A DNA stretch of 64,000 nt, taken from positions 20,401 to 84,400 of the forward strand of contig NZ_LLWK01000028.1 of NCBI RefSeq assembly GCF_001529295.1. The letters are read 5' to 3'. Below the pieces are notes generated by a model, which made no database searches, was not told where the DNA came from, and was given only the letters and a program-made list of their open reading frames with translations. How positions within the stretch are numbered: the stretch's first letter is position 1; each line of letters begins with the position of its first letter. Positions 15,287-44,444 of this stretch are shown here, in pieces. Made by a program: the position numbers and the translations under genes. Origin of the DNA: Flavobacterium sp. TAB 87. Its GTDB lineage: Bacteria > Bacteroidota > Bacteroidia > Flavobacteriales > Flavobacteriaceae.

Positions 15287-15287
15287 T

Positions 15288-21411: not shown

Positions 21412-21449
21412 ATTTCTATTGTTTTAACTTTTTATATATTCAATTACTT

Positions 21450-22072: not shown

Positions 22073-22134
22073 CCCCCTGCGGCGGGGCTAAAAACTCCCT
22101 CCGAAGTCGGGGTTTTCTAAAAATTACAAATGGA

Positions 22135-22584
22135 ATGATGATGGAAGCTCAAGAAGATAATAAACGAAACAAAGTCGGTAGGAATCCCAAAAAGGATCCT
22201 AGCATCCATCGCTATGTTTTTCGTTTAACGGATCAGGAAAATGCTAAATTCCTTTCTCTTTTTGAAGCTTCAGGAGCAGACAATAAAGCTCGTTTTATTA
22301 CTTCCGTGCTGTTTGAAAAGCAAATAAAAACGGTAAAAGTAGATATGGCAGCAATGGATTATTACATGCGATTGACCACTTTGTATGGTCAGTTTCGTGC
22401 CGTTGGCGTTAATTACAATCAAATTGTCAAGATATTGTACCGTAATTTTTCCGAAAAAAAAGCAGCCGCTTATCTCTTCAAATTAGAGAAACAAACAATA
22501 GAACTAGCGCATTTATGTCGTGCCATTATGCAATTGACTGAAGAATTTGAAGCTAAACATTTGATTAAAAAAGAAGAAATATGA
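22135..22584 (+). CDS. mobA: MobA-type relaxosome accessory protein
   Basis: 149 aa: a basic N-terminus (KRNKVGRNPKKDPSIHRYVF), a ribbon-helix-helix-like region (RLTDQENAKFLSLFEASGAD) and a helical C-terminal part with GVNYNQIVKILYRNF, the MobC-superfamily pattern GxNxNQI. It likely binds oriT and helps the relaxase. The next gene overlaps by 4 nt. Symbol follows CTnDOT-style naming (mobA accessory, mobB relaxase, mobC coupling protein). Confidence 0.85.
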   Translation: MMMEAQEDNKRNKVGRNPKKDPSIHRYVFRLTDQENAKFLSLFEASGADNKARFITSVLFEKQIKTVKVDMAAMDYYMRLTTLYGQFRAVGVNYNQIVKILYRNFSEKKAAAYLFKLEKQTIELAHLCRAIMQLTEEFEAKHLIKKEEI

Positions 22585-23885: not shown

Positions 23886-23947
23886 ATTCTTAAGTTCTTC
23901 TACAGACAAATAGTGCCACTAAAAGCCATTTTAAGTCACTTCATTTT

Positions 23948-26161: not shown

Positions 26162-26452
26162 ATGAGTGCGAAAAAACAAATCTTGTTCCCTAAACACCAA
26201 CTCCTTCTAGAGCAAATGGGTGAGAATATCAAACTATCTCGAAAAAGAAGAAAATTAACTGCTATACAAGTTTCTGAAAGAGCCGATATTGAAAGAACCA
26301 CATTATATCAAATAGAAAAAGGAAATTCTAGTGTGGCAATAGGTGCTTATTTCAATGTACTAAGAGTATTAGGGTTACAAGATGATTTTTTAAAACTAGC
26401 CGCGGATGATGAACTAGGAAGAAAACTTCAATATCTAGACTTACTAAAATAA
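26162..26452 (+). CDS. hipB: XRE-family HTH antitoxin/regulator (HipB-like)
   Basis: 96 aa with an XRE helix-turn-helix: MGENIKLSRKRRKLTAIQVS, then ERADIERTTLYQIEKGNSS. Next to a hipA-type kinase gene, it is the HipB antitoxin and autoregulator. AACG-AA-CGTT (about 26145-26154) just upstream of the ATG is a possible operator. Its partner kinase gene is damaged, so it may now be an orphan regulator. Confidence 0.85.
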   Translation: MSAKKQILFPKHQLLLEQMGENIKLSRKRRKLTAIQVSERADIERTTLYQIEKGNSSVAIGAYFNVLRVLGLQDDFLKLAADDELGRKLQYLDLLK

Positions 26453-26545
26453 TCAATTTGCCTCATAATTCCCCTCCAATGGAGGGCTGCCCATTAGACA
26501 TGGTGGAAAAAAATATTTAAAAACAATACTCAACACGTCTCCAGC

Positions 26546-27788
26546 CTAAACCGATATTTACGTTTATTCGTATTGGCAACAAATGCAGAAACCTAAAATA
26601 AGAGGTGTTGAAAGAACTAAACAAGCCAAAGAAAAAAAGGCATTTAGTTTTGAATATGATAAAACTTGGTTAAAAACCGAACAAAAATTTCTCTTAGATA
26701 CAGACATACAATTATTCGGTGGTCTGTAATAAACCAATCAAAAACAAAATTTCGGAATCTTTCTAGACAGTATGCCAGACAATTGGGGACGTACCTTAAT
26801 GAAACGTCGCGAAACCCAACAAGCTAGAGAACATAATGAAAAACGAAAAACACTTTATGATATTGATTTTCTATTGGGTGTATATGACGAAAGTCGTATG
26901 GGAGCGTTACTATTTAAAACTGACCCAAATGGAGATTTCTTAGACAACAACAAAACCAGTTCTACTCCACCTTGGTCTTCCATTCGAGAATTACAAAATG
27001 CAGCTTCTCTATTCGAAAATGATAACGACGATGAAGAAGTGAATAAATGGCTAACAATACTCATGGCACCAGGTTCTTCTTTGGGTGGAGCAAGACCAAA
27101 AGCAAATATTTTAGATAATGATAAAAGCCTTTGGATTGCCAAATTCCCATCCAAGACAGATACCATAGACAAAGCAGCTTGGGAATTTTTAGCGTATCAA
27201 ATAGCAATTAATGCTGGAATCAATATGGCACCCTGCCGTATCGATAAAATCATGGGAAACCATCACACTTTTTTCACGAAACGCTTTGACAGAGAAAATG
27301 GTACGAGAATTCATTTTGCATCAGCCATGACCATGACAGGCAACAATGAAGATACTATAAGAGATAATCCTGCTAGCTATTTAGATATAGCCGAATTCAT
27401 CAGCAATCATGGGGCAAATGTAGAAGCTAATCTGTACCAATTATGGAGAAGATTAGTCTTCAATATAGCTATTTCTAATACTGACGACCATTTACGCAAC
27501 CATGGATTTATCCTAAGCAATCAAGGTTGGATTCTATCTCCAGCTTACGACCTCAATCCCTCTATTAACAAATATGGTTTAGCCCTCAATATTGATATCG
27601 ATAATAACGAACTCGATTTCGAATTGGCTAGAAGTGTGGGAGAGTATTATAGATCAAATAATTCTCAAATGGACAAGATCTTTGCTGATATACATAATGC
27701 GTTAATAGACTGGAAATTGATAGCTAAAGAAATTGGGATTTCTAGATCAGAACAGGAATTGATGACAAAGGCTTTTCTATTTAATTAG
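26546..27788 (+). pseudogene. hipA: hipA-type kinase gene with a broken 5' end
   Basis: The intact part, 26772-27788 (338 aa), holds the HipA kinase core: GARPKANI, WIAKFPS, FFTKRFDREN, catalytic SNTDDHLRNHGF and SPAYDLNPS. Upstream in the same frame lie the expected N-terminal pieces IYVYSYWQQMQKPKI (about 26556) and KAFSFEYDKTWL, but they are interrupted. Tandem TAA TAA codons sit at 26727-26732 where about two residues are expected. TNQKQNFGIFLDS then follows in frame. No start codon remains (CCTAAACCGATA where ATG-AAA-CCG-ATA would fit). The N-subdomain is therefore lost unless translation restarts at 26583 or 26772. A split HipS/HipT-like arrangement is a less likely reading. Confidence 0.75.
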
Positions 27789-27960: not shown

Positions 27961-28971
27961 ATGTCAACTACAAAATATCAAATTATTAGGTATAATAGAT
28001 TAGATCGATGCTTTCAAAACTTTGGAAAAGAATATACTATTGATGCTCTTTTAGCTAATGTAAACCAAGCGATTATTGACTATGATTCTAAAAGTGCAGG
28101 AATACAACTTAGAACTTTAAGAAAAGACATTGCATTTATGCGTTCGGAAGCGGGATACAATGCACCTATAGAAACTTATAAAAGCAGTAATGGAATTAAT
28201 TATTATCGATATGATGATAAAATTTTTTCTATAAATAAAAGTCCTTTAAATGATACTGAAGCTGAACAATTAAAAAATGCTATTTCTATTTTAAGCCGTT
28301 TTGAAGGCAGTCCAGAATTTGAATGGGTAAATGAAATTGCTCCTTTACTTAATGATAAATTTGGATTAAAAAGTCAAGAAAAGAAAGTAATGTCTTTGGA
28401 ATCTAATATTGATTACAGCGGTTACGATTATATTACCCCATTATTTAATGCGATCATTAATAAAACTGTAGTTAAAATAAATTACGAGCCATTTGGCAAA
28501 GAACCTTTTGATGTGATATTTCATCCTTATTTTTTAAAACAATATAACAATCGTTGGTTTGTATTAGGTTATAATGAGTTTAACCAAAGTCTTCATTGGA
28601 ACTTAGCCTTAGATAGAATAAAAGGTGAAATCTCAACTACTTCTTATAAATATAATATCGACACAACGGACTGGGAAGAATATTTTGAGGAGATAATTGG
28701 AGTTACAAAACCTATAGGAAACAAAGTGACAGAAGTTAAATTATTATTCAGCAAAGAGCAAGCTCCTTATATTAAAACAAAACCGATACATAGTACACAA
28801 AAAATTAAAATACAGGAGGATGGTACTTTAGAAGTTCGGATCAATGTTATTCTAAATTATGAATTAGAAACTAGAATACTTTCCTTTGGAGAAAAGGTAA
28901 AAGTTGTAGAGCCAGCTGTATTACTCAATATTATTTTAAATAGAATAAATAGGCAATTTGAAAGTTATTAA
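27961..28971 (+). CDS. WYL-domain transcriptional regulator
   Basis: 336 aa. The N-terminal part looks like a helix-turn-helix (IIRYNRLDRCFQNFGKEYTI; GIQLRTLRKDIAFM). A WYL domain lies at about 165-235 (VVKINYEPFG, FHPYFLKQYNNRWFVLGYN, LALDRIKGEI), followed by a C-terminal WCX-like extension. WYL regulators commonly control defence loci such as CBASS (CapW) and BREX. Here it opens the defence island. A palindrome starts 5 nt after its stop, and the same palindrome precedes the CBASS genes. Likely a ligand-responsive repressor of both operons. Confidence 0.88.
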   Translation: MSTTKYQIIRYNRLDRCFQNFGKEYTIDALLANVNQAIIDYDSKSAGIQLRTLRKDIAFMRSEAGYNAPIETYKSSNGINYYRYDDKIFSINKSPLNDTEAEQLKNAISILSRFEGSPEFEWVNEIAPLLNDKFGLKSQEKKVMSLESNIDYSGYDYITPLFNAIINKTVVKINYEPFGKEPFDVIFHPYFLKQYNNRWFVLGYNEFNQSLHWNLALDRIKGEISTTSYKYNIDTTDWEEYFEEIIGVTKPIGNKVTEVKLLFSKEQAPYIKTKPIHSTQKIKIQEDGTLEVRINVILNYELETRILSFGEKVKVVEPAVLLNIILNRINRQFESY

Positions 28972-29039: not shown

Positions 29040-31640
29040 ATGGCGAAAGTAGTATACTCAAACCCAGTGGAAGTTATCTCATTCAAAATTTTTGGTATTT
29101 TCGATGCTTTTAGAACAAATCCTAAATTAAGTCATTTAGAGGATTCTGTACCAGTTGTTCTTTTGCTTGTATCATTATATAAAGATGGTGTAATTTGTGA
29201 AAAAACGTTCACTAATAATTTCAGTCTTTCAGATCTTAAAACACTCATTTTTGAGTCAAATCTAGATAAAGAGACTAAGGATACTTATTTATTGATTTTT
29301 GATGTACTTAGTGATTCTTTGTCAAAAGTATTTAGTCAACCACTTGGTTATCTAAACTTTCATCTTTTTCAAAACGGGAAAGAAATGCTTTCAGAAAATT
29401 TTTCAAATGTAATAGACGACATTATTTATAAGATTTCTAAATCGCAAGGGCGTCATGCGGGTGAATTTATTCAACCTTTAGAATTGACTCGATTAATGTG
29501 TGGCTTAGCAAACTTAAGTATGAATTCAAAAGTATTCAATCCTTTTGCAGGTTTAGCTTCGTTTGATATTTATCTTAATAAAAATCAAGAATTTTTTGGC
29601 CAAGAGCTAAATAAAAAGACCTGGGCACTTGGTGCTTTAAGACTTATGGCTTACGGTAAACGAGTAAGTTCAGAATATATTTGCGAGGATTCTATTTTAA
29701 ATTGGCCTAAAAATACAGAAAAGTTTGATTTGATTATTTCGAATCCTCCTTACGGTGTTAGATTTGGCAATAATTATAAAGGTGTTGAGCATGAATTTAG
29801 GACTATTGAACAATTTTTAATTAAAAATGGAGTAGATTCTTTATCTGAAAATGGCAAATTAATTGTCCTTTTACCACAAGGTTTTTTATTTAGAGGAATG
29901 CAAGAAGAACGATTAAGAACGTTGCTAATTGAAGAAGATTTAATAGACACTATTATTTCCTTACCCGGAGGCTTGTTATTAAATACGGGAATACCATTAA
30001 TTATTTTAGTTCTTGATAGAAACAAGAAACTACCTGGTAGAGTAAAATTTGTTGATGCTAAGAATTTTGTCAATCTTAAAGGACCAAGAGAAAAGGTATT
30101 GAATGACCAAGAATTACTTAGTCAAATAATGGACACTTCAATTATCGATTATTCTGACAATCAAAACGTGGTTAATGAACCTTCTGAAACATATAATTCA
30201 ACTAGTTCAGCAAAGATTAATTATTTAGTTCGTTTGGTTGACAACAGTCAAATAAAAGAAAATGATTACAATCTGAGTGTTACACGCTATTTCCAAGAAC
30301 ATATTGAAGGTGTAAAACTTAGAGATATTATTGAACCATACAGAGGGCTACGAGGAAATCTTCCTGAAACTGGAAAGCTAATTCGTATTCGTGATTTAAA
30401 AGATGATAATGTAAATTTTTTATTAGATGATAAAGCTGTTGAAGAAACAGAATTGAATAGACACATGATTCACCAAATTGATGAATCATGTTTATTATTG
30501 GCAATACGTTGGAAAACATTAAAGCCTACTTTTTTTGAGTATAAGGGTAGCCCAATTTTCAAAAGTCAGGATATTTTTTCAGCCAAAATTAAACAAGTAA
30601 AAATTGATGAAGTTAACATAGCTTATTTAATCAATGAGCTTCAATCAGAATATGTTCAGAAGCAATTGGATTCATATCGCTTGGGTGCTACTATTCCTTT
30701 TATTCGTCAGGTTGATTTACTCAATGTGGTAATTAAATTACCTTCATTGGAGGAACAACATGCAAAAGTTAGTGGAATTATTGAACTTTCTTCAAAACTA
30801 AAGGAACTTGAGGTAGAGAAAGAAAATTTATTAAAAGGTATTAAAAAAGAAGAAACCGAAAGTTCAACTTCTTTAAGTCATATTTTAGGAAAACCTTTAT
30901 TAAGTATAGGATCTTCTCTTGAAATAATTCAAAATACTTTATCTAAAGTATATCCAGAATGGAAAGATTTATTAATTAGTGAAACCAAACAATTTTATAT
31001 GATTGATGCATTTGAATCCATTTCTAAAAATGTCAAATATATTCAAGAACTAGCAGATGAAAATACTGCTTTAGTAAGTGTATATTCATTCAATTTAATA
31101 GAAATTAATTTTCTGAAATTTCTATCTGAATTCGTCAAAAATGAAAAGAAAAGTCTAAAAAACAATATTGACATTAAACTAGATATTCATGAAGATATAA
31201 AAGAACAAATGAACAATAAAGTTTTCGTTTTTGGTAACGAACAAAAACTAAAAATTGTTTTGATAAACCTTATCGATAATGCTAAAAATCATGCTTTCAT
31301 AGAGCCAGACATGGAAAATAAAATAAATATTGAAATACTTCCTTTTACCAGAAATGAAAGAGAGGCCTATTTGTTAAATTATGATATTAATGGACGAAAA
31401 TCATATGTTGAGATAAGAATTTCAAATACAGGAAAACCTTTTCCAAAAGATTTTACATTAGAAGACTACACAAGAAAAAATTTTGCTGTTGGAAAAACTC
31501 GTAACAGAGGTTTGGGTGGTTATGAAGTTAATGAGATAATTAAAGCTCACAATGAAGGAAAAAAAGCGCTGAATATATCTTCTTCAGAAGATGATAAAAA
31601 ATACAGTTCAACTGTTTCATTTTTAATACCAATAATTTAA
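29040..31640 (+). CDS. DNA methyltransferase-specificity-histidine kinase fusion
   Basis: 866 aa with three parts. (1) Residues about 135-370 are an HsdM-like N6-adenine methyltransferase: GRHAGEFIQPLELTRLMCGL, VFNPFAGLASFD (SAM site) and catalytic NPPY at 235-238. (2) Residues about 400-595 resemble half an HsdS target-recognition unit, ending in a helix (HAKVSGIIELSSKLKELEVE). (3) The C-terminus is a GHKL histidine kinase: a candidate phospho-His614 in SLSHILGKPLLSIG, N-box NLIDNAKNHA (Asn743, Asn747), RISNTGKPFP and RGLGGYEVNEII (G boxes). The receiver gene starts 2 nt after its stop. I infer DNA-state sensing coupled to phosphotransfer. All key residues are present. Confidence 0.85.
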   Translation: MAKVVYSNPVEVISFKIFGIFDAFRTNPKLSHLEDSVPVVLLLVSLYKDGVICEKTFTNNFSLSDLKTLIFESNLDKETKDTYLLIFDVLSDSLSKVFSQPLGYLNFHLFQNGKEMLSENFSNVIDDIIYKISKSQGRHAGEFIQPLELTRLMCGLANLSMNSKVFNPFAGLASFDIYLNKNQEFFGQELNKKTWALGALRLMAYGKRVSSEYICEDSILNWPKNTEKFDLIISNPPYGVRFGNNYKGVEHEFRTIEQFLIKNGVDSLSENGKLIVLLPQGFLFRGMQEERLRTLLIEEDLIDTIISLPGGLLLNTGIPLIILVLDRNKKLPGRVKFVDAKNFVNLKGPREKVLNDQELLSQIMDTSIIDYSDNQNVVNEPSETYNSTSSAKINYLVRLVDNSQIKENDYNLSVTRYFQEHIEGVKLRDIIEPYRGLRGNLPETGKLIRIRDLKDDNVNFLLDDKAVEETELNRHMIHQIDESCLLLAIRWKTLKPTFFEYKGSPIFKSQDIFSAKIKQVKIDEVNIAYLINELQSEYVQKQLDSYRLGATIPFIRQVDLLNVVIKLPSLEEQHAKVSGIIELSSKLKELEVEKENLLKGIKKEETESSTSLSHILGKPLLSIGSSLEIIQNTLSKVYPEWKDLLISETKQFYMIDAFESISKNVKYIQELADENTALVSVYSFNLIEINFLKFLSEFVKNEKKSLKNNIDIKLDIHEDIKEQMNNKVFVFGNEQKLKIVLINLIDNAKNHAFIEPDMENKINIEILPFTRNEREAYLLNYDINGRKSYVEIRISNTGKPFPKDFTLEDYTRKNFAVGKTRNRGLGGYEVNEIIKAHNEGKKALNISSSEDDKKYSSTVSFLIPII

Positions 31641-31642
31641 TT

Positions 31643-32824
31643 ATGAGTAAAATATATAAAATACTTTGGATAGATGATGAACATGATGACGATGCATTAT
31701 TACCATTTATTCTTCAAGCTGAAGCTCAGGGCATTATATTAGAAGGATATGGTTCCTTTAAAGAAGGTTTTTATGCGCTTGAATCAAATATAAATAATTA
31801 CGATCTTATTCTTCTTGATGCATTATTTTTTGAAGATGAAACATCAGAAACTCCTAACCCTGCAGGTTTAGGCTCTGCTATTCAGAAAATACATGAATTA
31901 AGAAGCAGAAAAACATTTCCATATTTTGTATTGTCTGGACAAACTCATTTTACGGATGTTACCAATCCTATACTTGAAGCTTTCAAGATTAGATGTTACA
32001 ACAAAAAGAATCCCGATGATGTTAAAGAGTTGTTAATCAATATTAAGACTGAAGCGGATAATCAAATTGTAACTCAAATTAAGCATGAAAATCAATTACT
32101 TTTTAATGTTTTAAAAGAATATCCCGACGAAGTTAGAGACACATTTATTACTATTTTCAGAAATCAAAAAGAAGGTAATAATCAATTTGATGATCAATTA
32201 TACTTTACGCAATTAAGAATTATTTTAGAACATTTATTTAGAAAAGCAAACGATATTGGAATACTGCACGATGCCTGTGTTCAAAAAGGAAATAATCAAG
32301 TTAACTTAACAGAGTCAAGTTTGTTTTTAGCTGGTTTTGATACAAAACATTTGAATGTTAACTGTGCCATAACCCATTTTCCGAAGTTAATCGCTGAAAA
32401 TGTAAAAAACATAATTTATACCACAGGAGCTGCATCTCACACTTCTAATGTCAATGTAACTCAAAATATCGATATACAAGCTTACAGAAAGGACATAATA
32501 TCACCATACCTCTTATATTCTTTAGCTTTCCAATTAATGGATGTTTTATTATGGTTTGATAGCTATAGCAAAACCAATGATGATATTGCATTAAATCGAT
32601 CATTGTGGAAAAGTTTTAATAGAGACCAATTTGGTAACAAAATTGAGATAGAAAAAATAACAAACATTACTCATAGCGGTTGGGGAACAGTTGAAATCAA
32701 TAACGGAACTAAAAAAATTAGTATACACAAAGATGCTATTACGCAAAGTAATTTGGCTGTCGGAGATCAAATTAAGTTCAATGTTAAAGACTCTTCTTTA
32801 GCACAAAACATAACAAAAATTTAA
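31643..32824 (+). CDS. Response-regulator-like protein with cold-shock-like C-terminus
   Basis: 393 aa. The N-terminal receiver domain has Asp11/Asp12 (ILWIDDE), the likely phospho-acceptor Asp59 (DLILLDALF) and the Ser of FVLSGQ. Residues about 150-330 are helical, with no known family recognised. The last 60 residues (SGWGTVEINNGTKKISIHKD and VGDQIKFNVKD) look like a cold-shock/OB fold that could bind nucleic acid. There is no DNA-binding HTH, so the output is probably not ordinary transcription control. Almost certainly the partner of the kinase fused to the methyltransferase 2 nt upstream. Confidence 0.8.
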   Translation: MSKIYKILWIDDEHDDDALLPFILQAEAQGIILEGYGSFKEGFYALESNINNYDLILLDALFFEDETSETPNPAGLGSAIQKIHELRSRKTFPYFVLSGQTHFTDVTNPILEAFKIRCYNKKNPDDVKELLINIKTEADNQIVTQIKHENQLLFNVLKEYPDEVRDTFITIFRNQKEGNNQFDDQLYFTQLRIILEHLFRKANDIGILHDACVQKGNNQVNLTESSLFLAGFDTKHLNVNCAITHFPKLIAENVKNIIYTTGAASHTSNVNVTQNIDIQAYRKDIISPYLLYSLAFQLMDVLLWFDSYSKTNDDIALNRSLWKSFNRDQFGNKIEIEKITNITHSGWGTVEINNGTKKISIHKDAITQSNLAVGDQIKFNVKDSSLAQNITKI

Positions 32825-32843: not shown

Positions 32844-34562
32844 ATGATAACAGGCGACCTCAAATCATCAATAGACGCAATATGGAGCACCTTTTGGACA
32901 GGAGGAGTTACCAACACCATAACAATCGTAGAGCAACTTACATACCTCATCTTCATTAAAGATTTAGACGAGTCAGAGGTAAGAAACGAGTTAAAAGCAC
33001 GACACGGTTTCAAATACACACCTATTTTTAACCAAGAACAACAACAGTTCCGTTGGAAAAATATAAAAGAACTAGATGTAAATGCACGACATAATCTCTT
33101 TACCAATACAGTTGATGGAATTTTTCCATTCATTCGTTCCTTAGGGAAAGAAACAAGTCTTTTCGCTACCCACATGAAAGGAGCGACATTTGGCATTTCT
33201 AAACCTGCTGTATTGGACCAAGTAATGGAGAAGCTAGAAAATATCGACATGTCTAAGCAAGACACAAAAGGAGATATTTACGAATACCTATTGTCAAAAT
33301 TAGAAGGCGGTGGAACAGCTGGACAATTCCGTACACCACGACACATTATTAAATTAATGGTAGAGCTGATGCAACCTACTTTAGAAGACACAGTGTGTGA
33401 TCCATCAGTAGGGACTGCGGGGTTTTTAGTAGCTGCCAAAGAATACATCGACAAACACAACGACGTCACTAAATTGGACCGATACGCAAACCACATCAAT
33501 ACAAAGATGTTCAACGGTACAGAATTCGATGCGACGATGTTGCGTATTGCTTCTATGAACTTATACCTGCACGGTGTTGAAGAACCAAATATTATAGATG
33601 TCGATGCTGTTTCTAAAGACAATACAATTTCAAATGCCTATACCTTAGTATTAGCAAATCCTCCGTTTAAAGGAACAATCGACAAAGAAAGTATTGCTCC
33701 GGGATTAAAAAATGTTACCGATACCTCGAAAACCGAATTGTTATTTTTAGCCCTTATGCTTCGACAATTAAAAACCGGTGGTCGTGCAGCAGTAATTGTA
33801 CCTGATGGTGTATTATTCGGAAGCGGAAAAGCGTACAAAAGTATTAGAGAAGAAATCATAGCTAATAACAAACTAGAAGCAGTTATCTCAATGCCTAGTG
33901 GAGTTTTTAAACCTTATGCCGGAGTAAGCACTGCCATAATCATTTTTACAAAAACAGGAACTGGTGGAACTGATAATGTTTGGTTCTACGATATGCTTGC
34001 CGATGGAAAATCATTAGACGACAAACGTAGTTTATTAGTAGACGAAGACTTATTCATGGATTTTGCCTTTGGTGATGCCTTTTCAAAAAGAAAAGAAATT
34101 ATTAAAGATGCAGATGCAAGTACTCCAAAAAAAGGAGACAACGACAGTGAAGATGAGTTTGACTTTTTGCCTAATAAAAAAGAAAAACAAGATACCCTAC
34201 ACGCTAAATTCAATTTACCGCAAATTCTTGATCATTACCGTTATTTAAAAAGTGATTATTTCAAAAAAATGCACGGTAAAAACGGAGAAGTGTTACATGT
34301 TCATGATGTACCAGAAAATTTAGGATGGGACAAGTTTATGAACGGTACGTGTACCCACGATTACAGCGACAGAACCTCTCAAAGTTTCTTAGTGCCTTTT
34401 AAAGAAATAAAAGAAAACGATTGGGATTTATCGATAAACTCATACAAGAAAATAGTGTATGAAGAAGTCGTATACGATGCGCCTAAAATTATTATCGATA
34501 GAATATTAGAAACTGAAAAGGAAAGAGCAAAATTAATGTCTAATCTAAAAAGTAATTTATAG
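32844..34562 (+). CDS. hsdM: Type I restriction-modification methyltransferase HsdM
   Basis: 572 aa. HsdM N-terminal helical region (DAIWSTFWTGGVTNTITIVE), GQFRTPRHIIKLMVELM, SAM-binding DPSVGTAGFLV, and the catalytic NPPF at 272-275 (LANPPFKGT). It modifies adenine with HsdS as the specificity subunit. This is a second, conventional methyltransferase, clearly different from the kinase-fused one 1.2 kb upstream. It starts 19 nt after the receiver gene and shares its last base with the hsdS GTG start. Confidence 0.95.
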   Translation: MITGDLKSSIDAIWSTFWTGGVTNTITIVEQLTYLIFIKDLDESEVRNELKARHGFKYTPIFNQEQQQFRWKNIKELDVNARHNLFTNTVDGIFPFIRSLGKETSLFATHMKGATFGISKPAVLDQVMEKLENIDMSKQDTKGDIYEYLLSKLEGGGTAGQFRTPRHIIKLMVELMQPTLEDTVCDPSVGTAGFLVAAKEYIDKHNDVTKLDRYANHINTKMFNGTEFDATMLRIASMNLYLHGVEEPNIIDVDAVSKDNTISNAYTLVLANPPFKGTIDKESIAPGLKNVTDTSKTELLFLALMLRQLKTGGRAAVIVPDGVLFGSGKAYKSIREEIIANNKLEAVISMPSGVFKPYAGVSTAIIIFTKTGTGGTDNVWFYDMLADGKSLDDKRSLLVDEDLFMDFAFGDAFSKRKEIIKDADASTPKKGDNDSEDEFDFLPNKKEKQDTLHAKFNLPQILDHYRYLKSDYFKKMHGKNGEVLHVHDVPENLGWDKFMNGTCTHDYSDRTSQSFLVPFKEIKENDWDLSINSYKKIVYEEVVYDAPKIIIDRILETEKERAKLMSNLKSNL

Positions 34563-35806
34563 TGATAGTTGATTTAAATTACGTTCCAAAAGGTTGGAAA
34601 AAAATTAAAATACCTAAAGTCTTATTTTTTCAAGAAGGACCAGGTGTTAGAAATTGGCAGTTTACAGAGACAGGTGTCAAATTACTTAATGTTGGTAATA
34701 TCAATCTAGGAAAGATTGATTTAAGCAAAACAAGTATTCACTTATCCGATGAAGAAGCTAATGGAAAATACAAGCATTTTCTAGTGGATGATGGCGATTT
34801 ATTAATTGCTTGCTCTGGCATTGTTGTAGATAATTTTCATAACAAAATTGCTTTTGCTAAAAAAGAACATTTACCACTGTGTTTAAATACAAGTACAATG
34901 CGTTTTAAAGCATTGAATGATAAGGTAGATTTAAATTATTTCAAATATTATTTACAAACAGTTCATTTTACGGCACAATTAAGAAAATTAATTACAGGTT
35001 CTGCACAACTTAATTTTGGTCCAAGCCATATCAAGAAAATTGACTTGTTATTACCTCCACTAGAAACACAAAAACACATCGCACAAATTCAAGACGATGC
35101 AGCTGCTTTACGCGATAAAACAGAGCAACTTCTTAAAGAATATGATGCTTTAGCACAATCTATCTTTTTAGACATGTTTGGAGATCCAGTTATTAATCCT
35201 CAAAATTGGGAAAAAAGAAAGTTGAAAAATGGTATTATTAATCTCCAATCAGGTTTAAGTTTATCTGGTGAGGAAAGAGACTTGAAAGAAGGAGAAATTG
35301 CAGTATTGAAAATAAGTGCAATTACAACTGGTGAATTTATTAATACTGAATATAAAGTTGTTGATAAAACCAACATCAGTAAATTCCTTGTTTTTCCTAA
35401 AAAAGGAGATTTATTATTTTCCAGAGCTAATACAAAAGAAAAAGTTGGTGCTATTGCAACTGTAGATAGAGATTATAATAATATTTTTATTCCAGATAAA
35501 TTATGGAGAATAGATACTAACCATCTTTTGAATAAAACGTTTTTAAAATTTATATTATCACATAGTGGTTTTAGATATAATATTGAGAAAGTATCTACTG
35601 GAACATCTGGATCAATGGTTAATATTTCAATGTCAAAATTTCTTAAAATTGAAGCTCCTTTTCCACCCATAGATCTCCAAAAGCAATTCGCAGAAAAAAT
35701 AATATTAATCGAAAAGCAAAAAGAATTAGCAAAACAAGAGCTTCAAGAAAGCCACGATTTGTTTAATTGTTTGTTGCAAAAAGCGTTTAAAGGAGAATTA
35801 GTGTAA
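34562..35806 (+). CDS. hsdS: Type I specificity subunit HsdS
   Basis: 414 aa from a GTG start that overlaps the hsdM stop by 1 nt. It has two target-recognition domains: TRD1 about 1-165 (VPKGWKKIKIPKVLF; HIKKIDLLLPPLETQKHIAQ) and TRD2 about 215-380 (NWEKRKLKNGIINLQSGLSL; APFPPIDLQKQFAEKI). They are separated by central and C-terminal conserved helices (LLKEYDALAQSIFLDMFGDP; CLLQKAFKGELV). Standard length. The two half-sites it recognises cannot be predicted from sequence. Confidence 0.93.
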   Translation: MIVDLNYVPKGWKKIKIPKVLFFQEGPGVRNWQFTETGVKLLNVGNINLGKIDLSKTSIHLSDEEANGKYKHFLVDDGDLLIACSGIVVDNFHNKIAFAKKEHLPLCLNTSTMRFKALNDKVDLNYFKYYLQTVHFTAQLRKLITGSAQLNFGPSHIKKIDLLLPPLETQKHIAQIQDDAAALRDKTEQLLKEYDALAQSIFLDMFGDPVINPQNWEKRKLKNGIINLQSGLSLSGEERDLKEGEIAVLKISAITTGEFINTEYKVVDKTNISKFLVFPKKGDLLFSRANTKEKVGAIATVDRDYNNIFIPDKLWRIDTNHLLNKTFLKFILSHSGFRYNIEKVSTGTSGSMVNISMSKFLKIEAPFPPIDLQKQFAEKIILIEKQKELAKQELQESHDLFNCLLQKAFKGELV

Positions 35807-35825
35807 AATCATAATTAAAAAAAAA

Positions 35826-37910
35826 ATGAAAATGAAAGACACTTTCTCTTTACAAGATATTGCAAACTGGCAATTAGATTCCGGAAACTCAACTGTTGAA
35901 TTGCCTTCTATTCAGCGTGGCTTTGTTTGGAAACCCAAACAAGTAGAAGATTTATGGGATTCTCTTTTACGAGGCTATCCTATTGGTTCTTTTTTGTTTT
36001 CAAAAACAAGCGACAAGCTCCATTTAATGGATGGCCAACAAAGAGCAACATCTATTTTTTTAGGGCATTTCAACCCCTACAATGCGACAGATGCTACCAA
36101 AGCATGGTCAATAAAAGGGGAATTACCCGTTTTATGGTTGGATATTAAGCATTTAGCAAAGCCAACCACAAGCAAATATTTATTCCGTTTAACAACCCGC
36201 TCACATCCCTGGGGATATCAGGCAAATAACAATGATGCAAAATTAACCGTATCAGAAAGACGCAAAGCATTAGAACTATTCAAGCAACATCCTGATAATA
36301 CTGGTGGCTATACTTCGTTTAAAAACACCACAACCTTTCCGTTTGATGCTGCGCATCCAATACCTCTAACTTTTATTTTGGAGGCAAAAAACACGGATGA
36401 AGTGATAGAAATGGTAGAACAATATTTACCAGATTATTTTGCTACCTTAAGAGGGAACTTTCAAGATAAAAGTGAATTTATTACTTTACTCAAAACAGAA
36501 TTAAAACCAGAGTTAGACAATATTTTTGAGAATGTAAAACATCTTAATCAATTACTGATTAAGTCAAACATTATTGAAGATCGAGTTTTACAAGAAGAAA
36601 ACGAGACCGAAAACCCCACTCTTTTTGTAAGGATAAATTCTTCAGGAACCACTTTAAACGGTGACGACTTAATCTATTCGATTTACAAAGCAATTTTTCC
36701 AGAAGCCAAAACTTTGATGGAAAATATAGGGTTAGATTTTATTGCACCTACACAAGTCCTTTCATTAGCATCTCGTATAGTTGCTTCTGATTTAAGTGAA
36801 AATGCCTTTGTAAAAAAAATTAATGTTAGAGATTTTCAACGTAGAATAAAAAACGAAGAATTTAAAGAAGGCTTAAAAAATCAAATTCAAACACAACAAT
36901 TAAAAGAGTTATTCGCTCAAGCAATAGGTATTCTATCCTGTGAAGATAATTCCTTGTTTGACGGTAAAATTCCTCCAGTCATTATCAAACAGTTCATCAA
37001 GAGAAATCAAGATTTGTTTTTATTTTTAGTGTATTGGTTACACATCAACAAGATAGAGCTAACCGATCAGACTAAACTTAAAATGGTGGCTAAGCTAATG
37101 GCATTTGCTTGGTTTGATTTTGACAATATTCCTCGTTTATGGAACGAAAAAATCAGCAATAAGAACTTCTGGGAGGAACCACTGAATGAATTAATGTGGT
37201 GGGATGATAAGTATGGTATACACTTTCTAATCAAACCAGATTTATTGCGAGAATATTATTTACAACCAAAGGTTGAGAACAGGTTTATAACTGAGGATAA
37301 AGATAGATGGGGACTTTTGGAGGAAGGCGCCGGTTCTAAAATAATAAAGTATTACAATAATGTGAAAACGCAAAGCTATGATTTCGCAATTGCGAATGAA
37401 TATTTCTATAATTTCATTGGAAGAATCCAACATAACAGGCAACTAATTTTATTAGCGCAAAGACAATATATAAATACCACTTTTGGTGACTATAACCAAA
37501 TGGATGATATGGATGACACTAATGTTCCTTGGGACTGGGACCATATATATCCAAACGAATGGGTTTATCGAAAAGAGTACTGCAATAGAAGTATCAGAGA
37601 TTGGAATAACACAAATGGTAATTTCCGTGCGATGTCGCTAGAACAAAACAGAAGTGAAAGTAATTCAGCTTCTCCAAAAGAGCGACTTGATCTTGCAGAA
37701 ATTAGAGAATGTTCATTTGTAAAAGAGGACTGGCAGTATTGGCAGAATTTAGAAAAAAGAATTTGGGATAATAAAGTAGAAAATCATTTTCGAGCAATAA
37801 CTACACGTATGATTAATATTTATGAGATATTCTGGAATGATTTTAAAATAGAAGAATTAATTGATTCAAATACCATCCCAAATAAAGTCTCAGAAAACAT
37901 AGCTAATTAA
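35826..37910 (+). CDS. DUF262-DUF1524 (GmrSD-like) protein inside the type I operon
   Basis: 694 aa. N-terminal DUF262 (ParB/Srx-like NTPase fold): LPSIQRGFVWKPKQVEDLWD, LLRGYPIGSFLF and LMDGQQRATS. C-terminal DUF1524-type HNH nuclease: WDWDHIYPNEW and NTNGNFRAMSLEQNRSES. This is the architecture of type IV restriction enzymes such as GmrSD, which cut modified phage DNA, and of SspE-like proteins. Its position between hsdS and hsdR, 19 nt after hsdS and 2 nt before the next gene, points to co-expression with the type I system, widening coverage to modified invaders. Confidence 0.85.
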   Translation: MKMKDTFSLQDIANWQLDSGNSTVELPSIQRGFVWKPKQVEDLWDSLLRGYPIGSFLFSKTSDKLHLMDGQQRATSIFLGHFNPYNATDATKAWSIKGELPVLWLDIKHLAKPTTSKYLFRLTTRSHPWGYQANNNDAKLTVSERRKALELFKQHPDNTGGYTSFKNTTTFPFDAAHPIPLTFILEAKNTDEVIEMVEQYLPDYFATLRGNFQDKSEFITLLKTELKPELDNIFENVKHLNQLLIKSNIIEDRVLQEENETENPTLFVRINSSGTTLNGDDLIYSIYKAIFPEAKTLMENIGLDFIAPTQVLSLASRIVASDLSENAFVKKINVRDFQRRIKNEEFKEGLKNQIQTQQLKELFAQAIGILSCEDNSLFDGKIPPVIIKQFIKRNQDLFLFLVYWLHINKIELTDQTKLKMVAKLMAFAWFDFDNIPRLWNEKISNKNFWEEPLNELMWWDDKYGIHFLIKPDLLREYYLQPKVENRFITEDKDRWGLLEEGAGSKIIKYYNNVKTQSYDFAIANEYFYNFIGRIQHNRQLILLAQRQYINTTFGDYNQMDDMDDTNVPWDWDHIYPNEWVYRKEYCNRSIRDWNNTNGNFRAMSLEQNRSESNSASPKERLDLAEIRECSFVKEDWQYWQNLEKRIWDNKVENHFRAITTRMINIYEIFWNDFKIEELIDSNTIPNKVSENIAN

Positions 37911-37912
37911 AA

Positions 37913-39121
37913 ATGATAAATATAGATTTTAAATTTCGCGCTGTTGGCCAAGGTGCTTTTTATACTGGTATTTTTAAACACTTCAATGGCAAACAGTTTT
38001 CATTTGTTTACGATTGTGGAACGGACTCATCGCGACAATATATAGAGAAAGAGATAACAAACTTTGTAAGTGAAACTAATAATCAAAAAATTGACATTCT
38101 TTTTATTTCTCATTTCCATAGAGATCATATCAATAAAATTGGAGAATTATTAAATCAAACTGGAGGGGCAAATTTAGCAATACTACCCTACTTAACTCCT
38201 GACGAATTAGTATTAGCTTATATCGATATCAATTTATCTGGAGGCATCGATCCTGATACCTTAGCTTTCATTCAAAATCCAGCAGGATTTTTACAAGAAA
38301 GAAAAGTAGATAAAATAATTTTTATCCACCCAAGTGATGAAGGTGATTCTGATTCTGAAGACGAACCGCAAGAAATAAAAACAGATCTTGATTCTCCAGA
38401 TTTTGATTTTATAATCTCAAACACTTTAAAACCTAATAATGATATTTTAGAAAATAATCCAAAAGTGGAACATTATTATGACAAAGGTAACTTCTCAATT
38501 GTAGGTTTCTGGGAATTCAAGTTTTTTAATAAAACAAGAGATATTACTACTCTCAATAACTTATGCCAAGAAGTGCAAAATCTTTTAAGTTTACCAACAT
38601 TTAATTTAAGTGATCTAGCAGATTATATAACAAATAATGAAAATACTTTTGAAACTGATTTCAATCAAATCTATTCTCGAAATTTTGGATATGGTCAATT
38701 AATCAATGATACTAGTATAGTAATCTATCATGGAGCAATAAAAACAAGAAAGTACCGAAAATGGTTTGGAAGATTACCAGGATGGTTTGGAAGTGGATTC
38801 ACAGGTACTTTATTAACTGGAGCCATACGGTTTAATCAAGATAGTTTAAATCAAATTCAAAGTAAGTGGTTAAATCAAAAATATTTTAAAAAAACAAGTG
38901 TTTTTCAAATTCCACACCATGGAGCAAATAACTATATTGAATCAACAGTGATATCCTCTTATCCAAATGTTAAATGGTGGGTAATAAATTTTGGTTTAGG
39001 AAACACACATAAACATCCTAGACAAGAAATTATCGATATAATTGAAAATCACAAGATCCAAGGAAATATCTTTCCTAATACACAAATAAACACAGTAGAA
39101 TATAAAGGACTATACAGATAA
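37913..39121 (+). CDS. MBL-fold metallohydrolase in the restriction operon
   Basis: 402 aa. The metal-binding motif SHFHRDHINK follows FVYDCGTDS and IDILFISH. A C-terminal PHHGANNY and VINFGLGNTHKHPR complete the metallo-beta-lactamase site, similar to ComEC-type nuclease domains. There is no signal peptide, so it is cytoplasmic. A long insertion (about 110-260) is specific to this protein. The substrate may be nucleic acid or nucleotide; not determinable here. It is translationally packed with neighbours (2 and 3 nt), so it belongs to the same defence operon. Confidence 0.8.
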   Translation: MINIDFKFRAVGQGAFYTGIFKHFNGKQFSFVYDCGTDSSRQYIEKEITNFVSETNNQKIDILFISHFHRDHINKIGELLNQTGGANLAILPYLTPDELVLAYIDINLSGGIDPDTLAFIQNPAGFLQERKVDKIIFIHPSDEGDSDSEDEPQEIKTDLDSPDFDFIISNTLKPNNDILENNPKVEHYYDKGNFSIVGFWEFKFFNKTRDITTLNNLCQEVQNLLSLPTFNLSDLADYITNNENTFETDFNQIYSRNFGYGQLINDTSIVIYHGAIKTRKYRKWFGRLPGWFGSGFTGTLLTGAIRFNQDSLNQIQSKWLNQKYFKKTSVFQIPHHGANNYIESTVISSYPNVKWWVINFGLGNTHKHPRQEIIDIIENHKIQGNIFPNTQINTVEYKGLYR

Positions 39122-39124
39122 CAA

Positions 39125-39688
39125 ATGAGTAACATCGAACAATCCTATCCAGAAGACTTACAAGAAATACTCAATTACGCAGAGGAATTGTCAATATCAA
39201 TTATAGATAAACTGAACCATTTTGATGCTAAAAAAGTCAATGACTTTTATACTGTCACAAATGAAAAAATAATCAGGAATAAAGCTTTATTTAATGAACT
39301 AGGATATATTCCAAATACAATTTCAAGTAACAGCAAAAACGAACAACCCAACGAATTCAAAGGTTTATATATTTTTGGTGAAAAAACAAATGGAATAATA
39401 GTTCCAGTATATGTTGGAATTAGCCGTACCATTTTCAGAAGATTAAGACAACACGCTTGGGGTAAAAATCACAACGAGTGTACTCTTGCCTATTTGAAAA
39501 CAAAACACAGTAATAAAGCTATTACCAGAAAAATAGTAACAAGTGATGATATGCTTCCGGCAAAAAGCAAAATTCAAAATTACACAGTAGTTTTAATCCC
39601 TGTTCCAAATGATTATGATTTATATTTTCTAGAAGTAGTTTTAGCAGGAAAATACAAGACAAAATGGAATAGTTTCAGAACACATTAG
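39125..39688 (+). CDS. GIY-YIG nuclease-domain protein
   Basis: 187 aa. A helical N-terminus is followed by a GIY-YIG-like core: GLYIFGEKTNG for the GIY strand, VPVYVGISRTIFRRLRQHAW for YIG plus the Arg helix, and a late Glu in LYFLEVVLAGKYKTKWN that could be the metal-binding residue. It may cut DNA. It lies 3 nt after the MBL gene and 12 nt before hsdR. Small GIY-YIG proteins of this type are seldom annotated; the fold assignment is by motif only. Confidence 0.7.
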   Translation: MSNIEQSYPEDLQEILNYAEELSISIIDKLNHFDAKKVNDFYTVTNEKIIRNKALFNELGYIPNTISSNSKNEQPNEFKGLYIFGEKTNGIIVPVYVGISRTIFRRLRQHAWGKNHNECTLAYLKTKHSNKAITRKIVTSDDMLPAKSKIQNYTVVLIPVPNDYDLYFLEVVLAGKYKTKWNSFRTH

Positions 39689-39700
39689 TATATTAGCTTT

Positions 39701-42700
39701 ATGGAAACAAACTTTCAATTTTTAGCAGAGGAATGGGCTGACTTTCACCAAAGAAGTGTAAAAGCAGAACAATCGGTAGTTACAGATCCGCGTACTTCAT
39801 TGACATATTCTCGTATGGCATTAGAAATTGCTATCAATTGGATGTTTACAAATGATGAAGAACTTACGCTTCCTTATGACACTACCTTAAACTCTTTGAT
39901 GAAACAAAGAGAGTTTCAAGAACAGTTTCCGCATAAATTATACAATGAAATCGATTTAATTCGAAAAGCAGGAAACTTAGCGATACACAACAAACAGGTT
40001 ACAAAAGCAGATGCGGAGAAAATAATAGAAAACCTTTTCTATTTTTCAAGATGGTTTGCGCAATCCTATGCTCAGAATAATGTAGATACCATTCCAATGT
40101 TCAATTGGGAATTAATTCCTACCGAAGGACAAGAAGCACTTTCTAAAAAAGACTATAAAAAAGTTGAAGATAAATTTGAAACCGATCTTGGAAAGTTCAA
40201 ATCAAAACTAAAACAAGAAGCAGAAAAAAATACAGCCTTAGCCAGCGAAAATGAACTATTTAAAAAACAAATAGAAGCATTACAAGCACAAATTGAGACA
40301 AATAAAAAAGAGGCAAATACAGCCGACATCACAAATCATCCTCGTAACGAAGACGAAACACGTAAATATTTTATAGATGTATCTCTTCGTGAAGCAGGTT
40401 GGGATTTATCAGGAAGTAAAGACAAGGAGTTTAAGGTACAATTCATGCCTAAATCAACAAATGTTTCCGAAACAGGTTATGTAGATTATGTACTTTGGGA
40501 CGATGATGGTTTACCATTAGCAATAGTCGAAGCTAAAAAAACAATGGAAAGTGCGACAAAAGGTGAAAATCAAGCCCAATTGTATGCCGAATGTATTGAA
40601 GAAATGTACGGTCGCCGTCCGGTGATGTATTATTCAAACGGTTTTGAAACCTACTTATGGGATGATCAATTCTATAAAAAATCAAGAATAGTCCATGGTT
40701 TTTACACCAAAAAAGAACTACAAACTTTAATGTTTCGCCGAGAAAACCGAGAAGACATTAGAGAGCAACCAATTGATACGACCATAACAGACAGAGCATA
40801 CCAATTAAGAGCCATCCGTTCAGTAGCTGCACATTTTGCAGGAAATGATAAAGCAAACGGCAAACTTCTTGGAACACATAGAGCTGCCTTATTAGTCTTA
40901 GCTACAGGAACTGGTAAAACTCGAATTAGTATTGCTATCTCTAAATTGTTATTAGAAGCCAATTGGGCAAAAAGAATATTGTTTTTAGCCGATAGAAAAA
41001 GTTTAGTCAGTCAAGCTAAAAATAACTTTGTCAAATTAATGCCAGAACATTCTAGTGTCAATTTATTACAAGAAAAGGACAACGTCGAAGCTCGTATTGC
41101 TTTTTCAACCTACCCTACCATGATGGGTCTTATCGATGGTTCTAAAGAAAAAGACAAACGTTTTTATGGTGTAGGTCATTTTGATTTAATCATTGTAGAT
41201 GAAGCACACCGTTCTATTTATAAAAAATACCAAGCTATATTTGATTATTTCGATGCCTTATTTTTAGGATTAACAGCAACTCCTATAGAAATTATCGATA
41301 AAAATACCTATGCCAGTTTTGGATTAGCTGATAAAGCACCAACGGACGCTTATACCTTTGAAGAAGCGGTTGCTAATAAACATTTAGTGCCTTACAATAC
41401 AATAGAAGTGCCGACTAAATTTTTGAGACAAGGTATCCATTATGACGATCTAACAGAAGAAGAGAAAGAAGAATTTGAAGAAGAAATTTTAGACGGTGAA
41501 GAAGCAACAGGCCAAGAAATCATTCCGGCAAACGAATTAAATACTTGGTTGTTTAATAAAGATACAGCAATTAAAACGCTGCAATATCTTTTAGATAAAG
41601 GAATAAAAAAAAGAGGTGGTGATGAAATAGGGAAAACTATAATCTTTGCCAGAAATAGAAAACATGCTCAATTCTTAAAAAACATGTTCCTTGAATTAGA
41701 TCCAGAACGTTATGGAAATGATTACGTAAAACTAATAACCCATGGAGAACCAAAAGCGGAAGAATTTATTCAACGCTTTTGTGATGAAGAAAAAGAAAGG
41801 TTGCCACAAATCGCCATTTCAGTAGACATGATGGACACAGGAATTGATGCTCCTAGTTGTGTGAATTTGATGTTCTACAAACCAGTTAAGTCCAAAGCTA
41901 AATTTTGGCAAATGATAGGAAGAGGTTCTCGTTTACGTCCAAATTTATTTGGAGAAAACCAAGACAAAGAGAACTTTTTGATTTTTGACTTGTATGGAAA
42001 TTTTGAATACTTTAAAGAAAATTCAAAAGGTATTGAAACTGGATCGCAAAAAAGTTTAACTGAAATTGTTTTTAGTTTAAAATTGCAATTAGCCTTATAC
42101 CTAAAAGAAGATAATTTTAAAGAGGACCACGAACTTCAAGAATATAGTGAACGACTTTTAAATGAATTGTATAACTCCATTATTGAATTAAACAAAGAAC
42201 GTTTCGATGTGAAAATGAAAATCGAAACGGTGATGGATTTCTCAAAAAGAGAAGTATGGAATCATTTAGATAAGAAAGAGTGCAAAACAATTTTAGATAT
42301 TTTAGCTCCATTAGTAAGATCGTCAAAAGCAGACTCAGACACCGCTCGTTTCTATGATAAGATGATATATACACTTATGATAGAACGCGTTGAAACACCT
42401 AACACGGAAGAGTTTTTAGCAACCTTAAACGTTCCAATTACAAAAGCAGCCATCATCTCCAAAAAGCTATTGAAGAAAACCTCAATACCAGAAATAATTG
42501 ACAATCTAGAAATAGTAAAACTACCTTTGGATGAAGATTTTTGGAAAAGTAGTGGTTTAAATCATTTAGAAAAAATCCGTGCAGGCATTCGTGAATTAGT
42601 AAAATACATGGATCCTGTGGACCAAAGATATGTCACAACTAATTTTGAAGATGCAATTCTGGAAGCTGAAATTATAACTTCAGCTTTTGGAGAGGAAAAA

Positions 42701-43186
42701 TCAGAATCTTATACCAATCCTTTCGCTAATAACACACATCGTTTAGAAGAAATTATTAGAGAAAACAAAAACAACATTACCATCGGCAGAATCCAAAACG
42801 GAGAACCTATTACCGAAGAGGAATTAAAATCATTAGAAAAGCTACTTTTTTCGAATAAAATCCAAAAGGAACAAGTCGAGAAAGAAATAGGACATCGTTT
42901 AGATTTAGTAGCATTTATAGTTGGTTTAATAGGCTTATCTCCAGAAAAAGTGAATGCCTCTTTTGCAGACTTTATTAATAAATACCAATTAACAGCAGTC
43001 CAAATTCAATTTTTAGATACCATCAAATTGTTTCTTACAAACAATGGTAAAATAGATCCTTCAAAATTATACGACTCCCCTTTTAAAAGCTACCACAGTC
43101 TAGGTATAGACGGGGTTTTTAATGAAGAGCAATCAACTAATATTTTTGGTATTCTAGATACTTATAACAGAAATAATTTGGGATAA
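39701..43186 (+). CDS. hsdR: Type I restriction endonuclease/translocase HsdR
   Basis: 1161 aa. The N-terminal region (about 1-130) resembles DUF4145, followed by a coiled linker. The PD-(D/E)xK nuclease core has Asp262 (GYVDYVLWDDDG) and Glu277-Ala-Lys279 (AIVEAKKT). The SF2 motor has Walker A ATGTGKT (Lys406) and DEAH 500-503. GMIGRGSRL-type motif VI appears as QMIGRGSRLRPN. A C-terminal HsdM/S-binding domain follows. It cleaves DNA unmodified at the HsdS target after translocation. All catalytic residues are present. Last gene of the operon; the CBASS pair follows after 101 nt. Confidence 0.95.
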   Translation: METNFQFLAEEWADFHQRSVKAEQSVVTDPRTSLTYSRMALEIAINWMFTNDEELTLPYDTTLNSLMKQREFQEQFPHKLYNEIDLIRKAGNLAIHNKQVTKADAEKIIENLFYFSRWFAQSYAQNNVDTIPMFNWELIPTEGQEALSKKDYKKVEDKFETDLGKFKSKLKQEAEKNTALASENELFKKQIEALQAQIETNKKEANTADITNHPRNEDETRKYFIDVSLREAGWDLSGSKDKEFKVQFMPKSTNVSETGYVDYVLWDDDGLPLAIVEAKKTMESATKGENQAQLYAECIEEMYGRRPVMYYSNGFETYLWDDQFYKKSRIVHGFYTKKELQTLMFRRENREDIREQPIDTTITDRAYQLRAIRSVAAHFAGNDKANGKLLGTHRAALLVLATGTGKTRISIAISKLLLEANWAKRILFLADRKSLVSQAKNNFVKLMPEHSSVNLLQEKDNVEARIAFSTYPTMMGLIDGSKEKDKRFYGVGHFDLIIVDEAHRSIYKKYQAIFDYFDALFLGLTATPIEIIDKNTYASFGLADKAPTDAYTFEEAVANKHLVPYNTIEVPTKFLRQGIHYDDLTEEEKEEFEEEILDGEEATGQEIIPANELNTWLFNKDTAIKTLQYLLDKGIKKRGGDEIGKTIIFARNRKHAQFLKNMFLELDPERYGNDYVKLITHGEPKAEEFIQRFCDEEKERLPQIAISVDMMDTGIDAPSCVNLMFYKPVKSKAKFWQMIGRGSRLRPNLFGENQDKENFLIFDLYGNFEYFKENSKGIETGSQKSLTEIVFSLKLQLALYLKEDNFKEDHELQEYSERLLNELYNSIIELNKERFDVKMKIETVMDFSKREVWNHLDKKECKTILDILAPLVRSSKADSDTARFYDKMIYTLMIERVETPNTEEFLATLNVPITKAAIISKKLLKKTSIPEIIDNLEIVKLPLDEDFWKSSGLNHLEKIRAGIRELVKYMDPVDQRYVTTNFEDAILEAEIITSAFGEEKSESYTNPFANNTHRLEEIIRENKNNITIGRIQNGEPITEEELKSLEKLLFSNKIQKEQVEKEIGHRLDLVAFIVGLIGLSPEKVNASFADFINKYQLTAVQIQFLDTIKLFLTNNGKIDPSKLYDSPFKSYHSLGIDGVFNEEQSTNIFGILDTYNRNNLG

Positions 43187-44442: not shown

Positions 44443-44444
44443 CG

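Follow-up and report, generated by a model that had tools for sequence, protein, structure and literature searches.

What is a DNA methyltransferase doing when it is joined to a histidine kinase and encoded at the head of a type I restriction–modification (R–M) operon? The question is raised by a 64,000-nucleotide stretch of DNA from Flavobacterium sp. TAB 87 (contig NZ_LLWK01000028.1, positions 20,401 to 84,400; hereafter the window), in which a methyltransferase–kinase fusion of 866 residues, here called MK, precedes a receiver protein of 393 residues, called RR. A preliminary description, made from the sequence alone, had placed both reading frames exactly, 2 nt apart (Table 1), but had overlooked the WYL gene upstream and the type I R–M operon downstream. 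The reading favoured here, to which we give an even chance, is that MK and RR work as a two-component pair: the methyltransferase part would be the sensor, and the output of RR would act as a second-line effector and guard the type I R–M system linked to it.

The union of an HsdM-like methyltransferase, half of an HsdS subunit and a kinase in one protein, proposed in the preliminary description, is backed by Pfam, PADLOC and a family profile. The top-scoring domain of MK is N6_Mtase (Pfam, E 4e-42 on the full-length protein), which contains the S-adenosylmethionine (SAM) motif and the type I fold. HsdM_N gave no Pfam match in MK, and residues 1-110 are its most variable part, with a mean pairwise identity of 25%. 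The half-HsdS is recognised by PADLOC type I specificity models (best E 2.6e-10, residues 442-596), and positions 489-567 of the MK family profile match the HsdS structures 5ybb_D and 3okg_A; it is a single recognition domain fused inside MK and not a separate HsdS with two domains. The HATPase_c profile stays under its 26.4-bit cut-off on full-length MK (E 5.7e-5, 24.0 bits) and slightly exceeds it on the excised kinase (27.0 bits), so that the kinase is detected by profile, if narrowly for the window sequence; across the family, HATPase_c is found at E <= 0.01 in 41 of 42 kinase segments. His614 aligns with the H-box histidine of solved sensor kinases. Many MK relatives are named type I M protein or N-6 DNA methylase in the databases. 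Full-length relatives with the same architecture are present in many independent contigs and on an annotated Myroides plasmid, which argues against an assembly artefact. The gene order on that plasmid is WYL, 'N-6 DNA methylase', 'hypothetical protein', HsdM, HsdS, two genes and HsdR, and the second and third of these match the MK and RR profiles with 485 and 211 bits, respectively.

The receiver gene is as firmly attached to the fusion in other genomes as in the window, where RR, with its Asp59, had been correctly described. A scan of species genomes yielded 48 loci, of which 47 hold family members; the remaining one (L054) has a methyltransferase of the ordinary kind and does not enter the locus counts. 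The RR gene follows MK in 46 of the 47, the exception (L027) being cut off within MK by the end of its contig; in L017 and L051 MK is split, and the receiver lies two or three open reading frames on. Among 395 evenly drawn Bacteroidota genomes, seven carry MK at E <= 1e-60, all with RR adjacent. RR was found in 12 of these genomes at E <= 1.8e-10 and in 33 at E <= 1e-3, the remaining 21 being weak receiver-type matches. A family kinase-domain gene lies directly upstream of RR in 12 of 12 cases (11 further loci plus the window), the weakest, in L100, scoring 54 bits. In phage records, RR had no match at E 1e-10. In the window, a complete type I R–M operon follows RR (32844-43186). Elsewhere, the WYL gene is immediately upstream of MK in 38 of the 47 loci, and in 37 a further N6-methyltransferase gene is found no more than nine genes away; labelling of HsdR around the loci was partial (23 genes). 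With type I R–M and WYL as regular companions, a role as guard or controller of R–M is indicated, rather than a stand-alone system.

Several relatives show variations on this layout. A protein of 426-488 residues is often encoded between RR and HsdM (L010, L012, L025, L029, L035, L038, L043 and L048), and the two examples scanned, from L010 and L029, belong to DUF2130. L101 (2695-5508) encodes a diverged methyltransferase–kinase with a weak N-terminal HARE-HTH match that narrowly misses its threshold (24.4 against 25.9 bits). In L100 (589-9188), an RR homologue of 307 residues that keeps the Asp and Lys stands beside a kinase-type protein of 763 residues, named as from a Melioribacteraceae metagenome-assembled genome, which matches the family kinase profile with 54 bits and HATPase_c with 18.6 bits (below cut-off) and has no methyltransferase match. 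This pair is located between Csm5 and a Csx1-type CARF-HEPN gene, followed by Cas6, in a type III-A-like CRISPR operon; at E 1e-3, the CRISPR-linked kinase matched only itself.

The signature residues of kinase and receiver are invariant, in agreement with the His/Asp conservation that the preliminary description implied. His614, Asn747, Asn796, Gly798, Gly824 and Gly826 are identical in all 120 MK homologues, a set that comprises the best 120 of 2100 matches, window included, and is biased to closer relatives. In the 46 locus MKs (45 loci plus the window), His614 is kept in 46 of 46 and each of the other five in 45 of 45, with one gapped; all six are present in 11 of 11 further sampled loci, one of which (L106) is the same locus as L026. 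Among RR homologues, Asp59 is found in 118 of 120 (two gaps) and Lys121 in 119 of 120 (one gap), and Asp12, Asp59 and Lys121 are kept in all 47 locus RRs and in all 11 from the further loci. MK and RR thus display the H, N and G boxes of a kinase and the acidic pair, Asp and Lys of a receiver, the residues of a two-component system.

The methylation residue, in contrast, varies. Asn235 of motif IV is N in 73, T in 32, S in 14 and H in one of the best 120 MK homologues, and N in 29, T in six, S in three, H in three, A in two and Y, F and I in one each of the 46 locus MKs, so that the catalytic [N/D]PP[YF] is kept in the window MK but not across the family. Neighbouring N6-methyltransferases keep the catalytic Asn in 40 of 40 cases, the window HsdM and one L054 gene included. 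On a 99-row MK tree (a single tree, built by a quick method without motif IV), at least 17 changes between N and not-N were counted, and His614 is present in 99 of 99 rows. SAM motif I is retained in the 46 locus MKs (N167 in 45, P168 in 46, G171 in 45, S174 in 44). The eight MKs with His, Ala, Tyr, Phe or Ile at the motif IV position presumably cannot mark their own sites.

Kinase and receiver are also co-inherited across the gene border. Over 45 loci, the Spearman correlation of pairwise identities is 0.90 between the catalytic (CA) and receiver (REC) domains and 0.89 between DHp and REC (about 0.89-0.91), and the partial correlations with REC, given the N-terminal, methyltransferase and recognition parts, are still 0.84 for DHp and 0.86 for CA. 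Within the proteins, the values are lower: 0.44 for REC and the middle domain of RR, 0.55 for the recognition domain and DHp, and 0.38 for the methyltransferase and DHp. CA–REC exceeded REC–middle and recognition–DHp in 300 of 300 bootstraps over loci. Kinase and receiver are therefore inherited together more tightly than either is with the domain to which it is fused. In L021, for example, the methyltransferase and the RR output resemble those of L037, and the kinase and receiver those of the window; in the compared pairs, the breaks fall near the recognition/DHp and REC/output junctions and not at the gene border. The loci thereby supply a natural set of matched and swapped kinase–receiver–output combinations.

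In the 20 loci with an alignable HsdS, the MK recognition domain has a mean pairwise identity of 40%, close to the 43% of the MK methyltransferase, compared with 22% and 20% for the two HsdS recognition domains. A shared specificity of MK and local HsdS was rejected, since the local HsdS was the best or tied best match in just 2 of 27 loci; in 10 of the 27, including the window, it gave no match to the MK recognition domain. A conserved recognition domain that is unlike the local HsdS suggests that the input reads one constant thing and not the changing R–M sites. Co-adaptation of the cassette with HsdM was likewise not seen (r -0.07 to 0.14 over eight domains in 33 loci, restricted to those having MK, RR, HsdM and WYL), and only WYL–HsdM covariation reaches 0.29. 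Without covariation with the adjacent HsdM, the cassette looks portable.

The output side of the pair lies in RR. In line with the preliminary description, no helix–turn–helix (HTH) motif was listed in Pfam scans of RR or its relatives. The cold-shock-like end stands as a fold and is weak by sequence: the OB fold is visible in the AlphaFold model (pLDDT 86.9) and matches phage CspC (Foldseek E 2.3e-3), but the C-terminus of the window RR reaches only E 0.052 and 13.9 bits with CSD, below cut-off. S1CSD-TOTE-2 was found in 3 of 76 relatives (best E 4e-6), and the OB part is absent from 7 of 47 RR proteins. The helical middle domain carries Arg192 in 47 of 47 locus RRs and 11 of 11 further loci, and His266 in 47 of 47 and 10 of 11; this constancy looks like that of an active or binding site. 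Pfam scans, including 42 members, gave no family above its cut-off for this domain, and PDB searches with RR were filled by receiver matches, so that its fold was scarcely probed. PF17878, a phage single-stranded DNA-binding family, showed sub-threshold matches in 9 of 42 members and, in a rescan, in 7 of 10 (L008, L009, L011, L016, L019, L020 and L022; the strongest at E 4.3e-5 with 23.8 bits, cut-off 27). RR may be a phosphorylation-gated effector that handles nucleic acid.

A HEPN identity of the middle domain was considered because of R..E and G/S-S-H patterns that resemble the DUF4145 part of HsdR, and found no support from Pfam, PDB profiles or hhalign with controls. DUF4145 appeared in one of 42 RR members (E 0.18), and RR aligned with DUF4145 no better than the controls did (four of eight DUF4145 loci were dropped for open reading frame length). 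An R-x4-6-H motif ending at His266 occurs in 0 of 47 RRs; the window RR contains R-x4-H at R192-H197, and that His is kept in just 5 of 47.

From these observations we infer both the trigger and the output of the pair. Two MK chains would form an M2S-like clamp, a homodimer joined through the HsdS-like coil, which would run on to the DHp helix. An altered filling of the DNA/SAM cleft, by DNA, by a DNA mimic or through loss of SAM, would change the autophosphorylation of MK, and the phosphoryl group would pass from His614 to Asp59. Phosphorylated RR would then act via its Arg192/His266 domain when restriction is under attack, in most RRs joined by the OB fold of nucleic-acid-binding type, and the WYL protein probably sets the expression of the cassette. 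Relatives of the pair are likely to be an alarm, switching on a response once DNA or a phage inhibitor occupies the methyltransferase look-alike. Since MKs that have lost the catalytic residue are presumably unable to modify a fixed site of their own, plain self/non-self sensing of methylation does not explain them, but a guard against DNA-mimic or SAM-depleting anti-restriction would. More specifically, the retired methyltransferase could be a bait with the DNA/SAM-binding shape at which phage anti-restriction proteins aim, and its occupation by DNA mimics such as Ocr or ArdA, or its emptying when SAM is depleted, would fire the phosphorelay and a backup effector; this version is tentative and, on balance, rather unlikely. 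Were it true, the system would be a two-component guardian of restriction, with input, kinase–receiver core and output as exchangeable modules.

The two rivals with most to recommend them differ from this reading in what the phosphorelay is for or in what starts it. MK and RR could tune the production or activity of the linked R–M system, for example by holding HsdR back after transfer into a fresh host, with RR binding mRNA or DNA. The cassette stands first in the operon and has a regulator-like WYL gene in most loci, RR ends in an OB/CSD-like fold, part of its middle domain is matched in some relatives, below threshold, by PF17878, and the element looks mobile, a setting in which delayed restriction would matter. 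Such control is nevertheless unlikely, given that the OB domain is missing from 7 of 47 RRs, that the most constant output residues, R192 and H266, sit in the middle domain, that the RR output does not covary with HsdM and that one divergent pair lies in a type III CRISPR operon. Alternatively, MK could be an active methylase whose kinase is stimulated by its own unmethylated sites on foreign DNA. The motif IV N is kept in the window and 28 further members of the 46, SAM motif I is conserved in these loci, and a recognition domain that changes so little might recognise a single invariable site. This is quite improbable, as 17 of 46 MKs are without Asn, eight of them with residues that are not known from any methylase. 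MKs of this kind would leave self DNA unprotected at such a site, and the local HsdS does not share their recognition domain. The proposal of the preliminary description, that modification status or bound DNA is converted into a phosphorelay, is accordingly retained for its two-component make-up, methyltransferase-like input and link to restriction, and not for own-site modification status as a family-wide rule (Asn absent in 17 of 46). Least probable by far is that MK is mainly an accessory modification enzyme, with the kinase and receiver as ordinary feedback on it; N6_Mtase is its strongest domain by score and many database names agree, but the methylation residue is variable and the kinase residues are not.

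The guard reading has its own difficulties. Ten of the 47 loci lack a second N6-methyltransferase; five of these (L014, L017, L027, L042 and L051) end soon around the cassette, but L015, L033, L034, L047 and L049 have several kb past RR. Among the 11 further loci, several show a decayed motif I, and this speaks against SAM as the signal throughout the family. The window MK retains NPPY and, judged by its residues, may itself methylate DNA. T and S at the motif IV position may belong to N4-cytosine-type methylases, in which case it is clear for only 8 of 46 MKs that no known catalytic residue is present. Residue 796 of MK is Asn, where Asp is usual in GHKL kinases, yet it is invariant, and the solved kinase 3a0t likewise shows 'NSG'. 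The structure model of MK is poor at 597-614 (pLDDT < 50 at 601-614), just before and at His614, so that the link from coil to DHp is a putative one. Adjacency in the DNA contributes to the co-inheritance of kinase and receiver, although receiver and output are also DNA neighbours, yet these part company. Finally, the effector role of RR is proposed for a middle domain that has no family above cut-off and gained no support from the HEPN profile test.

Table 1. Coordinates of the cassette, its domains and the linked operon in the window
Feature	Position	Strand	Basis
WYL-WCX regulator-like gene, first of the three-gene cassette	27961..28971	+	Pfam WYL 33.4 bits, WCX 50 bits, both above cut-off
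MK, methyltransferase/half-HsdS/histidine kinase fusion, 866 aa	29040..31640	+	
MK residues 1-110, HsdM-N-like helical part	29040..29369	+	
MK residues 111-420, N6_Mtase domain	29370..30299	+	
MK motif I	29538-29561	+	
MK motif IV NPPY	29742-29753	+	
MK residues 425-570, single HsdS-type recognition domain	30312..30749	+	PADLOC specificity model; HsdS structures in profile search
MK residues 571-700, HsdS-like coil and DHp helices	30750..31139	+	
MK His614, predicted phospho-acceptor	30879-30881	+	
MK residues 701-866, HATPase_c catalytic domain	31140..31637	+	Pfam on excised kinase
RR, receiver protein, 393 aa	31643..32824	+	
RR residues 1-139, receiver domain	31643..32059	+	
RR Asp59	31817-31819	+	
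RR residues 141-320, helical output domain	32063..32602	+	Helical in model
RR Arg192	32216-32218	+	
RR His266	32438-32440	+	
RR residues 325-393, OB/cold-shock-like fold	32615..32821	+	AlphaFold model, Foldseek
HsdM of linked type I R–M	32844..34562	+	
HsdS of linked R–M, two recognition domains	34562..35806	+	
GmrSD_N (DUF262) accessory protein within operon	35826..37910	+	
Metallo-beta-lactamase-fold accessory protein	37913..39121	+	
GIY-YIG accessory protein	39125..39688	+	
HsdR with N-terminal DUF4145	39701..43186	+	

The surroundings of the operon contain further candidate conflict genes. Directly behind HsdR (43288-46007) lies a CBASS-type pair, a SAVED protein with an N-terminus that appears HNH-like by eye and a cGAS-like CD-NTase (77 bits, below the model cut-off of 150). 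Next to the cassette (26162-27788), an HTH-like protein (by eye) and a HipA_C protein form a HipBA-like pair. Five co-directional genes at 13092-19213, the first nucleoside-phosphorylase-like and others P-loop GTPase-like (by eye), resemble a further conflict cluster on the putative mobile element that carries the cassette. Tra-like, ParA-like, mobilisation and coupling protein genes (by eye) occupy 4394-12358 and 20644-26002, and these conjugation genes point to an integrative conjugative element as the likely carrier of the cargo.

How the pair relates to known systems bears on its novelty. The preliminary description knew of no system with this layout, and none was found in the literature searched, which excluded subscription papers: neither a methyltransferase–kinase fusion with a receiver nor a receptor in which a DNA methyltransferase fold precedes a histidine kinase. 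Detocs applies two-component logic to phage defence, with a purine nucleoside phosphorylase as output and a sensor that is not known to be a methyltransferase. RR resembles it in the fusion of a receiver to a non-HTH output, but the MK sensor is methyltransferase-like, and no purine nucleoside phosphorylase domain was listed in Pfam scans of RR or its homologues. The Vibrio vulnificus type I methyltransferase bound to the DNA mimic Ocr (PDB 7eew) has 638 residues and, unlike MK, no kinase domain.

The closest precedent is HEF_HK/Response_reg_2, separate genes for a soluble kinase-like and a receiver-like protein that, according to the available text of PMC8011034, are tightly linked and enriched near R–M systems. 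As described there, the kinases mostly have the order HATPase_c_3, HEF_HK and HATPase_c, the methylases are neighbouring genes, and the words 'fused', 'fusion' and 'HsdM' are absent from that text. MK–RR shares the kinase–receiver gene pair beside R–M (46 of 47 linked, 37 of 47 with an N6-methyltransferase), but its input is a type I methyltransferase with a half-HsdS and its partner a type I operon. PF19191 and PF19192 were not in the Pfam listings at E up to 0.1 or 0.01 (for relatives, among the 25/37 families listed), provided that the library contains both. Also described, as far as the accessible parts of these articles go, are a REC-domain CRISPR effector without a kinase (PMC11229360), a BarA/UvrY-like global pair that controls CRISPR expression (PMC8523701) and a figure legend that names HATPase and REC domains among predicted defence systems (PMC13092281).

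If the guard reading is true, many Bacteroidota type I R–M operons carry their own alarm line, and bacteria possess, in the cytoplasm, a two-component receptor that reads the state of the DNA/SAM cleft, a target of anti-restriction proteins. Guards of R–M have been described in PrrC, which resides within a type IC R–M locus, and PARIS, with cofactor depletion as a possible signal; none of the terms 'histidine kinase', 'two-component' and 'response regulator' is used in the main text of that review, as available (PMC12707154). By analogy with PrrC and PARIS, MK–RR may be a second-line system that watches restriction or its inhibitors, and unlike these guards, as described in the available part of that review, it would do so with a kinase, a receiver and a sensor in the shape of a methyltransferase.

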